Positions 5,450-33,754 of a DNA stretch of 64,000 nt are shown piece after piece (position 1 is the first letter of the stretch; each line of letters starts with the position of its first letter). The translations under genes and the position numbers were made by a program. Origin of the DNA: an uncultured Chlorobiaceae bacterium (GTDB lineage: Bacteria; Bacteroidota; Chlorobiia; Chlorobiales; Chlorobiaceae); assembly GCA_903824295.1 (NCBI GenBank), contig CAIJWE010000068.1, positions 1-64,000 on the forward strand, in the 5' to 3' direction. The notes under the pieces are model-generated. The model saw only the letters and a list, made by a program, of their open reading frames with translations. It searched no databases and had not been told where the DNA came from.

Positions 5450-6112
5450 TTACACGATCTCCTCCAGCAATGCTAAAATCTCTTCCGGGCGTTGTACCAA
5501 TGATTTTGCGCCAAACTCAAGAAGCTCGCTTTCAGGGCGGAATCCCCAGAGGACGCCGAGGGGGTACATGCCGGCTCTTGTAGCGGTCAGCATGTCGATG
5601 CCGCTGTCGCCGACGTAGAGGATTGAGGAGGGCTCTTCGTGGAGCATCCGGGCGACAAGCAGGGCTCCCTCGGGATCTGGTTTGTGGGCTATGGCGCTGT
5701 GGTGACCCATGACCACATCGAAATCCCACTCTTTCAGGAGTTCCTCTGCGCAGAGGCGGGTGAAGTGGTCGGCTTTGTTTGAAAGGATTGCTTTTTTGAT
5801 ACCCCGCTCTGAAAGGGAGTCGAGCATGGTACTGATGCCGGGGTAGGGGCGCGAGTTTTGGTTCCAGTTATCGGCATAATGCGTCATCAGATCTTTGAGA
5901 AGAAGATCAATGGTCTCCGGGGTTCCGGCCTCTTCGGGCAGTGCTTTTTTGACCAGTTCCTTCATGCCGTGCCCGACAAGAAAGCGGCACTCATCAACGG
6001 TATGGACGGGGTAGTGGTGGAGGGCAAGGACGCTGTTGAGGGTGTTGACAATATCCTGGAGGGTGTTGAGCAAGGTGCCGTCAAGATCGAAGATAACTGC
6101 TTTGCAGGTCAT
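5450..6112 (-). CDS. HAD-superfamily phosphatase, phosphoglycolate phosphatase-like
   Basis: A 220-residue HAD subfamily IA hydrolase. Motif I is FDLDGTLLNT (nucleophile and acid Asp) at about residues 8-17, motif II is LSNKAD, the Lys comes in AHKPDPEG, and motif IV is VGDSGIDMLTA. The helical cap between motifs I and II fits phosphoglycolate phosphatase (Gph) or pyrophosphatase-type members. Phosphoglycolate is a plausible substrate but cannot be assigned from the sequence. It is convergent with the HIRAN gene and shares a bidirectional hairpin with the upstream chlorosome gene. Confidence 0.85.
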   Translation of the reverse strand: MTCKAVIFDLDGTLLNTLQDIVNTLNSVLALHHYPVHTVDECRFLVGHGMKELVKKALPEEAGTPETIDLLLKDLMTHYADNWNQNSRPYPGISTMLDSLSERGIKKAILSNKADHFTRLCAEELLKEWDFDVVMGHHSAIAHKPDPEGALLVARMLHEEPSSILYVGDSGIDMLTATRAGMYPLGVLWGFRPESELLEFGAKSLVQRPEEILALLEEIV

Positions 6113-6181
6113 GGGGGAGATTCTCTGGTTTTGGGGGAATTCGGAAGCGTCTCAAAGGAAAAATTTATCATGCAATAAAAA

Positions 6182-6212
6182 AAGCACCTCATACCAACGG
6201 TATAAGGTGCTT
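6182..6212 (-). terminator. Intrinsic terminator after the chlorosome gene
   Basis: AAGCACCTCATACC at 6182-6195 pairs with GGTATAAGGTGCTT at 6199-6212, with one internal mismatch. It is flanked by A-runs on one side and T-runs on the other, so it can act on either strand. It follows the csm-type gene by about 20 bases and separates it from the HAD gene. Confidence 0.8.
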
Positions 6213-6233
6213 CTTTTTTGAAAAAACAGATGC

Positions 6234-6560
6234 TTACTTTTTAGGGATAATCACTGCTGTTACGTTCTGTACTACCTGCCCAGCCGTGCAAGTTACGCTC
6301 TGAAAAGCCTGACCGGCGGTGTTGGTTGCGCTCTGCAGCAACTGGCCAGCGGTGTTGGTTGCGTCCTGCAACAACTGACCAGCGGTGTTTACGGTGTTGC
6401 CAGCAAGATCAAAAGCTGACTTTGCGATTGGTTCAACAATTGATACAACAGCTTTGGCTCCGGTGCTTACCAAATCGAGCTCTTGCTGTACAAACTTGCC
6501 TGCGGTATCAACAAGATTGTTGAGTGCAACTGAAAAATCGTTAACTGCGTCGTTTGCCAT
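6234..6560 (-). CDS. Chlorosome envelope protein, CsmB/CsmF family, with 11-residue repeats
   Basis: A 108-residue protein starting MANDAVNDFSVALNNLVDTA and ending VIIPKK, the style of the CsmB/CsmF chlorosome envelope proteins. These coat the lipid monolayer of the bacteriochlorophyll-filled chlorosome. Family members as I know them are about 75 residues. The excess here is explained by four tandem 11-residue units at residues 58-68, 69-79, 80-90 and 91-101, each close to NTAGQLLQxAT. Three extra units equal 33 residues, and 108 minus 33 is 75. The sequence is hydrophobic to amphipathic with no signal peptide. It is monocistronic, with an AT-rich 250-base upstream region. Confidence 0.85.
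   Translation of the reverse strand: MANDAVNDFSVALNNLVDTAGKFVQQELDLVSTGAKAVVSIVEPIAKSAFDLAGNTVNTAGQLLQDATNTAGQLLQSATNTAGQAFQSVTCTAGQVVQNVTAVIIPKK
6258..6389 (-). repeat. Four tandem 33-bp coding repeats
   Basis: The DNA encoding residues 58-101 of the chlorosome protein consists of four direct 33-base units. Units 2 and 3 share the stem ACCAACACCGC, and all encode (N/C)TAGQ plus LLQ, AFQ or VVQ. Third-base differences between units suggest the expansion is not very recent. Confidence 0.85.
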
Positions 6561-6811
6561 GATGGTTATTATTATAAGATTATAAGAAAAGTATATGGGT
6601 CAAAATTGATTCGGTTACTTTTTTTTTATGATAGCAACGCAATCTTCAGATTTTATTGCAATTTAATAAATATAAATGACAGAAGCCAACAAAAAACTGC
6701 TTCTGTAACACGTTAACCCCTTTCACAAGGGTGATTGGCTCAGATGAAATTTCACAGTTACACTCTTGCTGCGTATCTTGCCCTTAAATTTAAAAAAAGA
6801 GGGCAGATGCC

Positions 6812-7624
6812 ATGATAAAAAAAATTTCGCTGTTTGTTGTTTTGCTTGTTGTTTCCCTCTCTGTTACAGCGAGTGCTGCCGTTGGTGCTCTTGTGCTTGA
6901 TGGTTCTACGACCGTTGGTCCTATTGCAAAGACGTTTGCTGCATATTTTACCAAAAAATACGGGGTTCGTGTTACTGTGAGCGAGTCGGGCAGTGGTAAT
7001 GGCGCCAAAAGCCTGATCAACGGTTCATGCACCATTGCAACAATGTCACGAGCCATGAAGGCTGCTGAAATTGCCGCAGCTCGCCAAAAAGGGGTCAATC
7101 CTGTTGCCTCCGTTGTTGCGCTTGACGGTCTTGCCATGGTTGTTCATCCGGCAAATCCGGTACGCTCGTTGACGAAAGCGCAGATCAGCGGCATCTATCG
7201 CGGCACCATCACGAACTGGAGAGAGGTGGGAGGTCCCAATGCGCGTATTGTTGTTCTCCAGCGAGAATCCAACAGTGGGACTGAGGAGTCGTTCAAAGAG
7301 CTGGTGATTGGCAAAGGGGTGCAGATTACTGGAAGTGCAGAGACTCAGTCGAGTAATGGTTCGGTAAAGAGCAGGGTGAACTCAACCCTTCCCGCTATAG
7401 GTTTTCTCGGCCACGGTTTTGTTGATGGCTCGGTAAAAGTTATTGCTGTCAATGGTGTTTTCCCTACGGTGGCGACGGTGAAAAATGGCAGCTATCCGGT
7501 ATCGAGGCCACTCTATTTCTATACGAACGGTCAGCCTGCGGGGTTGGTCAAACAGTTTGTTGATCTGCCGAACAGCGCTGAAGGAAAAAGAATGATTACT
7601 GAGCTTGGCTTTATCAACCGCTGA
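6812..7624 (+). CDS. pstS: Phosphate ABC transporter substrate-binding protein
   Basis: A 270-residue periplasmic protein with an N-terminal signal peptide (KKISLFVVLLVVSLSVTASA, cleavage near residue 22). The phosphate-binding landmarks of the PstS family are visible: DGSTTVGPIAKTFA, SESGSGNGAKSLINGS, the SRAMK loop, ITNWREVGG and QRESNSGTEESF. It captures inorganic phosphate for the PstCAB transporter encoded downstream. A hairpin terminator and a 228-base gap separate it from pstC, so it is probably transcribed separately, as binding proteins often are. An AGAGGG element lies about nine bases before the ATG. Confidence 0.95.
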   Translation: MIKKISLFVVLLVVSLSVTASAAVGALVLDGSTTVGPIAKTFAAYFTKKYGVRVTVSESGSGNGAKSLINGSCTIATMSRAMKAAEIAAARQKGVNPVASVVALDGLAMVVHPANPVRSLTKAQISGIYRGTITNWREVGGPNARIVVLQRESNSGTEESFKELVIGKGVQITGSAETQSSNGSVKSRVNSTLPAIGFLGHGFVDGSVKVIAVNGVFPTVATVKNGSYPVSRPLYFYTNGQPAGLVKQFVDLPNSAEGKRMITELGFINR

Positions 7625-32608: not shown

Positions 32609-33754
32609 CTAATCGTCATCCTCCCCGCCATCTCCTCGGTCGCTCTCCCGGCTTCCATTGCGATGGCATTTTATGCAGTTCTGGTAGTTATAAATACCCT
32701 CTTCACGATGCACCGCCGCCATATTTGATGGCGTGTGCTCGTGGCAGCCGTAGCAGGTATACTGCTTGTAGTTGCCGGGGTTGGTGTGGCAGGTTTTGCA
32801 GCTTGCCTGATGATCACGGTCGAGTCTGAAATAGCGGTCATGGTTGAATGTTGCCGGTTTCCAGCGGCTGGTGCTGTGGCATTTTGCACAGTTTCCTTCT
32901 GAAAAGCGATGCAGATTGTCACTGGGCTGGTCAGCCTTGTGGCAACTGATGCACTGTTTTCCTGAAGCGGCAAACTTTTTGTGGTTGAAGGTTGCCGGTT
33001 TCCATTTTGTCGTATTGTGGCATTCCGAGCAGGCCGCAGTTACCTCTCTGTGCAGCTTGTCACTGGGCTGGTCAGCCTTGTGGCAACTGATGCACTGTTT
33101 TCCTGAAGCGGCAAACTTTTTGTGGTTGAAGGTTGCTGGTTCCCATCGGTTGGTGCTGTGGCAGTCGGCGCAGGATGCCGTCGTTTCACGGTGCAGCCGG
33201 TCACTGGGCTGGTCAGTTTTGTGACACGTGATGCAGCTCTTTTGGATTGATACTGCAAGCCGTTTGTGCTCAAAGGTTGCGGGCTTCCACTCCTTTATGG
33301 TATGGCACTCGCTGCAATTTCCTGTTGCATAGCGATGCAGGTTGTCTTCCGGTTTTTGATTTTTATGACAGGCGACACAGTTTTTCTGGAGAGATATGGT
33401 CAGCGATGTGTGCTTGAAGGTTTTTATTGCTTTTGATGCTTCAGCTCCCTTGTGGTCAGTGTGGCACTCTATACAGGAGTTGGCAGAAAGTCCTTTGTGA
33501 AAAAGAACCTTCGATGAATCTTTTGGAAGCGATGCGCCGGCGACATTTTTTATGCCGATAAATCCCTCTTTGTGACAGGTGATGCACTGCAGTGACGTTG
33601 CTCCCCGGAATGGAGTGTGGCAACTCAGGCACTCTCTTTTCAGTGCATGATGGCCCTTCATCAGGGTTCCGGGGTCGAGCAGCACATCGGGAAATCTTAT
33701 GGCAAGTGCTGCAAGAATGATGAGAGAGACGATAAAGGTATAAAGCGGTTTCAT
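32609..33754 (-). CDS. 14-haem c-type cytochrome
   Basis: 381 residues with an N-terminal membrane anchor or uncleaved signal (LYTFIVSLIILAALAI) and 14 CxxCH haem-binding motifs. The centre holds a roughly 47-residue repeat (KPATFNHKKFAASGKQCISCHKADQPSDxLHR), each unit carrying a CISCH/CITCH and a CxxCH before STxxW. It ends in an acidic Asp/Glu/Gly tail. It should sit on the periplasmic side and conduct electrons. The gene follows the cytochrome b-like gene by seven bases, so the pair probably forms a membrane quinone/cytochrome c module. Electron donor and acceptor are unknown. Confidence 0.93.
   Translation of the reverse strand: MKPLYTFIVSLIILAALAIRFPDVLLDPGTLMKGHHALKRECLSCHTPFRGATSLQCITCHKEGFIGIKNVAGASLPKDSSKVLFHKGLSANSCIECHTDHKGAEASKAIKTFKHTSLTISLQKNCVACHKNQKPEDNLHRYATGNCSECHTIKEWKPATFEHKRLAVSIQKSCITCHKTDQPSDRLHRETTASCADCHSTNRWEPATFNHKKFAASGKQCISCHKADQPSDKLHREVTAACSECHNTTKWKPATFNHKKFAASGKQCISCHKADQPSDNLHRFSEGNCAKCHSTSRWKPATFNHDRYFRLDRDHQASCKTCHTNPGNYKQYTCYGCHEHTPSNMAAVHREEGIYNYQNCIKCHRNGSRESDRGDGGEDDD
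32916..33136 (-). repeat. 80-bp direct repeat inside the cytochrome gene, 141-bp period
   Basis: Bases 32916-32995 and 33057-33136 are identical over 80 bases and offset by 141 (47 codons). They encode neighbouring cytochrome repeat units. Weaker copies extend upstream toward 33300. Identity at third codon positions means recent duplication or gene conversion. Confidence 0.9.

Follow-up and report, generated by a model that had tools for sequence, protein, structure and literature searches.

What might a small protein of a chlorosome-envelope family gain by growing in steps of 11 residues? The question is raised by an ORF on the minus strand (positions 6234–6560, ATG start, TAA stop) of the window, i.e., the whole 64,000-nucleotide stretch analyzed here, which comes from an uncultured Chlorobiaceae bacterium (contig CAIJWE010000068.1). 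CsmB/CsmF and CsmC/CsmD reportedly help set chlorosome size and shape, going by the title of a 2009 paper by Li and Bryant.

The ORF encodes a 108-aa protein. Its body (residues 3–57; 6390–6554, minus strand) holds five degenerate 11-residue blocks that share the helical phase of the units that follow. These are four tandem 11-mers spanning residues 58–101, all on the minus strand: NTAGQLLQDAT (unit 1, 6357–6389), NTAGQLLQSAT (unit 2, 6324–6356), NTAGQAFQSVT (unit 3, 6291–6323), and CTAGQVVQNVT (unit 4, the last, 6258–6290). The C-terminal tail AVIIPKK (6237–6257, minus strand) carries the family end, xPKK. At the DNA level the best pair of units is identical at 29 of 33 positions and the other pairs at 22 to 24; Tandem Repeats Finder reports a 33-bp period with 2.5 copies, 87% matches, and a score of 127. 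The lag-11 self-identity of the protein is 33, compared with a mean of 7.9 and a maximum of 19 in 5000 shuffles. No 33-bp DNA periodicity is present in the unrepeated part of the gene. A sequence-only reading of this DNA had placed four units at 6234–6560 and counted 33 residues added to a family of about 75; coordinates and counts are exact, most members collected being 73–77 aa long and the syntenic one-unit orthologues 74/75 aa.

Homology places the window protein, as a CsmB-type member, in CsmB/CsmF, a known family of chlorosome-envelope proteins. It matches the CsmB-type protein of its own genome (L004, 75 aa) with an E value of 3.5e-13 and 41% identity, and its likeness to CsmB extends along its length. 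The alignment scores are 128 to CsmB (shuffled maximum 51) and 85 to CsmF (shuffled maximum 65), so that the family assignment first made from the letters is borne out by homology over the 75-aa body. The names CsmB and CsmF rest on two routes, the sequence scores and a comparison of candidate masses with published ones. In the 2,154,946-bp genome that supplied the candidates, a genome of the size of C. tepidum TLS, the masses without Met are 7.48 and 7.61 kDa, respectively. The published masses are 7.5 and 7.6 kDa (PMC3175400). A length of about 75 aa is common in the family, not necessary; the window protein exceeds it by exactly three units and, as far as sequence comparison goes, this excess is an insertion and not the sign of a different family. 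CsmB and CsmF of Chlorobaculum tepidum (Vassilieva et al. 2002, Li and Bryant 2009) share with it the 75-residue body, a MANE/MSNG start, the xPKK end, and a predicted 11-residue-phased helix. In contrast to them, the window protein is 33 residues longer (three extra units), represents a separate paralogue, and has its own conserved upstream element.

The same genome encodes further relatives (L003, 74 aa; L002, 86 aa; the CsmF-type L005/L151, 105 aa). Moreover, since it encodes CsmA/CsmE-type proteins (CsmA-type in two copies) and CsmC, with the models scoring above the cut-off, the source is a chlorosome-bearing green sulfur bacterium. Relatives were matched in 88 of the 98 genomes of the class, including all 86 of the same family (two genera), with up to nine matches per genome; the 12 more distant genomes among the 98 gave matches that were absent or marginal. 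The one non-Chlorobi match (L009) lies inside a TruB-like ORF and is due to chance. Pfam and NCBIfam contain no model for CsmB-type proteins, and every match to them fell under the cut-off. Membership in CsmC/CsmD (PF11098) was rejected at 13.2 bits against a cut-off of 26.3, as was membership in Phasin (PF09361), where the window protein reached 12.7 bits and its 120-aa orthologue 17.3 against a cut-off of 24.9. A PDB sequence search with the window protein returned chance coiled-coil and histone matches only. We found no report of this paralogue as a chlorosome protein in the accessible literature; we infer its chlorosome location, its lipid contact, and its functional consequence.

The unit count varies between species, as the sequence-only reading had supposed. 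At one conserved locus, orthologues carry one, two, three, four, or five units, corresponding to 74/75, 86/87, 98, 108, and 120 aa. One-unit orthologues occupy 21 of the 29 loci and lengthened ones the other eight; the four-unit, 108-aa form is present in four genomes. In a tree inferred from body residues alone (few columns), the eight longer orthologues form one supported branch beside the one-unit L017 (SH-aLRT 97). The downstream neighbor at 5450–6112 (minus strand), which we take to be a HAD-type phosphatase gene, is conserved beside 28 of the 29 orthologues. A divergent gene for a pstS-like phosphate-binding protein at 6812–7624 (plus strand), presumably pstS, is a neighbor in part of the clade (19/29), all eight lengthened orthologues among them. 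Compared with its neighbors in the array, a unit is in most cases matched equally well or better by the unit at the same position in other species. The dN/dS values range from 0.16 to 0.34 in the units and from 0.05 to 0.17 in the body, i.e., selection is generally weaker in the units; across 29 units, A3, G4, and Q8 are invariant and Q5, T2, and T11 nearly so. Positional orthology together with the unit dN/dS values marks the units as old and maintained, and neither fresh nor homogenized by slippage. By these codon and residue comparisons we show that selection keeps the unit sequence.

Lengthening is found elsewhere in the family. Two relatives are lengthened separately from the window protein and via other blocks. 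The CsmB-like paralogue (start NDFSVALNNLLKTVG) occurs at 75, 86, and 97 aa, and its duplicated block differs (KTSSDLxGxxV). The CsmF-type protein occurs at 75, 83, and 105 aa, the last step adding 22 residues around SSLNLxGTxAT; the other gain, from 75 to 83 aa, does not divide by 11 and counts against the preferred helix reading, set out below. Measured from the EP anchor, the C-terminus lies 33 residues away in 112 unique proteins, and the longer distances are 44/45, 55/56, 66, and 78; apart from single-residue differences in the tail (AKK, VKK), all are multiples of 11. Homologues of equal length that lack the repeat were also looked for: members of at least 86 aa all carry extra phase-preserving 11-mer blocks, save three CsmF-type proteins of 98–103 aa. 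The only long members that lack helical 11-mers have inserts or tails rich in Cys, Pro, and Ala (84/85 and 98/103 aa). All lengthened proteins belong to one group of close Chlorobium relatives, and the events are therefore not independent of ancestry. The three CsmF-type exceptions (L172, L173, and L179) have Pro/Ala-rich C-terminal tails and represent a second, non-helical lengthening route. In addition, CsmB-like genes stand in tandem, in twos or threes, in some Chlorobium genomes (L033; also L138, L147, and L148), one of them with a Cys/Pro/Ala-rich insert (84/85 aa).

What geometry would a step of 11 residues preserve? The hydrophobicity spectrum of base-length members peaks at 99 degrees per residue, which falls between 98.2 (11/3) and 100 (ideal alpha helix) and separates neither. 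In the window protein, the hydrophobic directions of the nine 11-residue blocks (residues 3–101) lie between 12 and 88 degrees (R=0.91). The phase coherence of residues 3–68, which include one unit only, has a shuffle P of 0.003, and the six-block R of the 78 members that are 75 aa long has a median of 0.90, relative to 0.33 when shuffled. Because phase coherence is already present in 75-aa members, the 11-residue register is ancestral to the whole family, with each C-terminal insertion prolonging one continuous stripe. On the helical wheel of the units the stripe consists of L6, A10, A3, and L7; T2 and T11 border it, and N1, Q5, Q8, and position 9 lie on the far side; the amphipathic face that the sequence-only reading depended on is thus present, as one hydrophobic stripe with a polar side opposite. 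Its more specific claim of an 11/3 amphipathic helix stands in part: the units are amphipathic and compatible with 11/3, while 98.2 and 100 degrees are indistinguishable and positions 3, 6, 7, and 10 also fit a hendecad coiled coil. Pro44 sits within the predicted helix and counts against it. An AlphaFold2 model based on four sequences is all-helical at very low confidence (mean pLDDT 49.5).

The proposed likeness to lipid-surface 11-mer helices holds for moment and composition, with much less charge here. The hydrophobic moment of the units is 0.33 at 98.2 degrees on the Fauchere-Pliska scale (column-permutation P 0.02, and 0.005 on the Eisenberg scale; both modest). Published moments are 0.30 for alpha-synuclein, 0.35 for Plin3, and 0.257 for Plin4 (PMC5889406), a range of 0.26–0.35 with which the comparison is approximate, the window value being a single one over 44 residues and the published values means over consecutive helices. 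The units are weakly hydrophobic (36% hydrophobic, 2% aromatic, and 2% charged residues). With the 11-mer regions of perilipin 4 and perilipin 3 they share indel-free tandem 11-mers, a weakly hydrophobic stripe rich in T/G/V/A, few aromatics, and an important polar face. However, the perilipins show no homology to the window protein; Plin4 has 29 33-mers and 15% charged residues (PMC5889406), and the perilipin 4-helix bundle has no counterpart here. The helices of alpha-synuclein and the apolipoproteins have the same 11/3 amphipathic pattern, and the synuclein moment is similar, but their polar faces are charged, whereas the window units are almost uncharged, and again there is no homology. 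That the units are without the charges carried by Plin4 and synuclein helices counts against the lipid-helix reading. Pfam and PDB sequence searches gave no match of the window protein to perilipin or synuclein. Closer at hand, CsmA is likewise a small amphipathic helical envelope protein, yet it belongs to another Pfam family (PF02043) and binds BChl a. Phasins, the coats of PHB granules, are also helical proteins that cover an inclusion; the matches to them are sub-threshold, and the organelle is a different one.

We consider the best reading, with a probability of roughly 60%, to be that of a CsmB-type envelope protein forming a long amphipathic helix on the lipid monolayer, extended unit by unit. 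The chlorosome envelope is a protein-lipid monolayer (PMC3175400). A predicted long helix with an 11-residue (3-turn) repeat would lie flat on it, with the stripe (positions 3, 6, 7, and 10) in the lipid and Gln, Asn, and Thr facing outward. One 11-mer block would have been duplicated and the gain kept, giving four blocks in the window protein instead of one; duplicated blocks may have been kept because 11 added residues lengthen the stripe and leave its direction around the helix unchanged. Each added unit would lengthen the footprint by about 1.6 nm and might give stronger or more monolayer-selective binding, as well as more lateral Gln/Asn contacts with neighbors. Changed envelope coverage could in turn alter chlorosome size or shape. 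Longer 11-mer helices of Plin4 bind droplets better (PMC5889406), and their stability relies on polar residues, which is interpreted as lateral contact between helices; Plin4 also reduces droplet size (PMC8064757). By analogy, the conserved Gln/Thr face could pack adjacent helices.

The same 11-mers might instead pack against one another as a helix bundle or filament, so that extra units lengthen a scaffold and not a lipid footprint. Positions 3, 6, 7, and 10 correspond to hendecad a, d, e, and h, their 3-1-3-4 hydrophobic spacing being exactly the core pattern, and two core positions hold small Ala/Val. The units fit this pattern as well as they fit lipid-helix geometry, and geometry alone does not decide. 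The long helices of the low-confidence single-chain model agree with a coiled coil, and chlorosome proteins can polymerize, CsmA forming rods of dimers (PMC4992139). However, core flanks that are nearly uncharged (2%) are unusual for coiled coils, and the family is known from the lipid envelope; we regard such packing, the main rival, as rather unlikely.

Neutral slippage, in which a tolerant C-terminus gains and loses 33-bp tandem duplications by drift and function is unaffected, would explain the 29/33 identity of the best unit pair, the weaker selection in the units, and the differing unit numbers of near relatives. Against it, the units are positional orthologues, closest to the same-position unit elsewhere rather than to their neighbors, their dN/dS values are well under 1, and the first duplications in different paralogues took different blocks yet kept the phase; the unrepeated part, moreover, offers no 33-bp periodicity to prime duplication. 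Drift of this kind is given little credence. It is highly improbable that the protein instead covers, in the manner of a phasin, an inclusion other than the chlorosome, with a possible phosphate link in view of the pstS neighbor. The phosphate-uptake operon adjoins 19 of the 29 loci, Phasin_2 matches weakly below threshold, and the 2,154,946-bp genome has a polyphosphate-kinase-like gene near CsmF; but pstS was not found beside ten of the 29 orthologues, where the promoter element is mostly conserved, the phasin matches are under the curated cut-off, and the protein is CsmB-like from end to end.

One structural rule, a continuous 11-residue-phased amphipathic helix, is proposed for the whole family. 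The CsmB/CsmF family and its general role are established; no phase-preserving series of lengths in three of its members was found in the literature searched, with subscription journals mostly outside it. Nor did that literature yield work joining the chlorosome with amphipathic and tandem repeats. More tentatively, and with doubt prevailing, the family may be the bacterial equivalent of 11-mer coats of the perilipin type, in which three envelope proteins of one Chlorobium clade change length by 11 residues at a time, with the phase kept, as an evolutionary dial for monolayer coverage and hence antenna size. CsmB itself shows no lengthening, which counts against the preferred monolayer reading. 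The natural series of one to five phase-preserving units at one locus provides a ready length series for a link to size and shape.

The flanks of the gene carry two elements of their own. The region about 115–160 bases upstream contains TTTCTGTTGGYWTCT and, after it, an AT-rich stretch; within this region the promoter-like element TTTYTGTTGGYWTCT (6681–6695, minus strand) starts at about -135 relative to the ATG. The element (12/15 or better) is conserved at 27 of the 29 orthologous loci, also where pstS was not found, compared with none of 124 other family members, and it has a single exact site in its own genome. Other chlorosome genes do not share the element, which looks like a promoter or operator proper to this gene. 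Directly after the stop codon, an inverted repeat read by eye, AAGCACCT...AGGTGCTT (6180–6222, no strand assigned), has T runs on both flanks and is a probable bidirectional terminator; a consensus terminator scan did not call it, as it exceeds the loop limit of that scan. CsmF is close to a polyphosphate-kinase-like gene in L185 (the 2,154,946-bp genome), and the paralogue of the window is close to pstS in its own genome, two phosphate-linked neighbors that may be coincidence. Elsewhere in the window (32609–33754, minus strand), a 381-aa multihaem cytochrome-like protein with many CxxCH motifs contains another tandem repeat, of 141 bp (47 aa), at 32910–33243.
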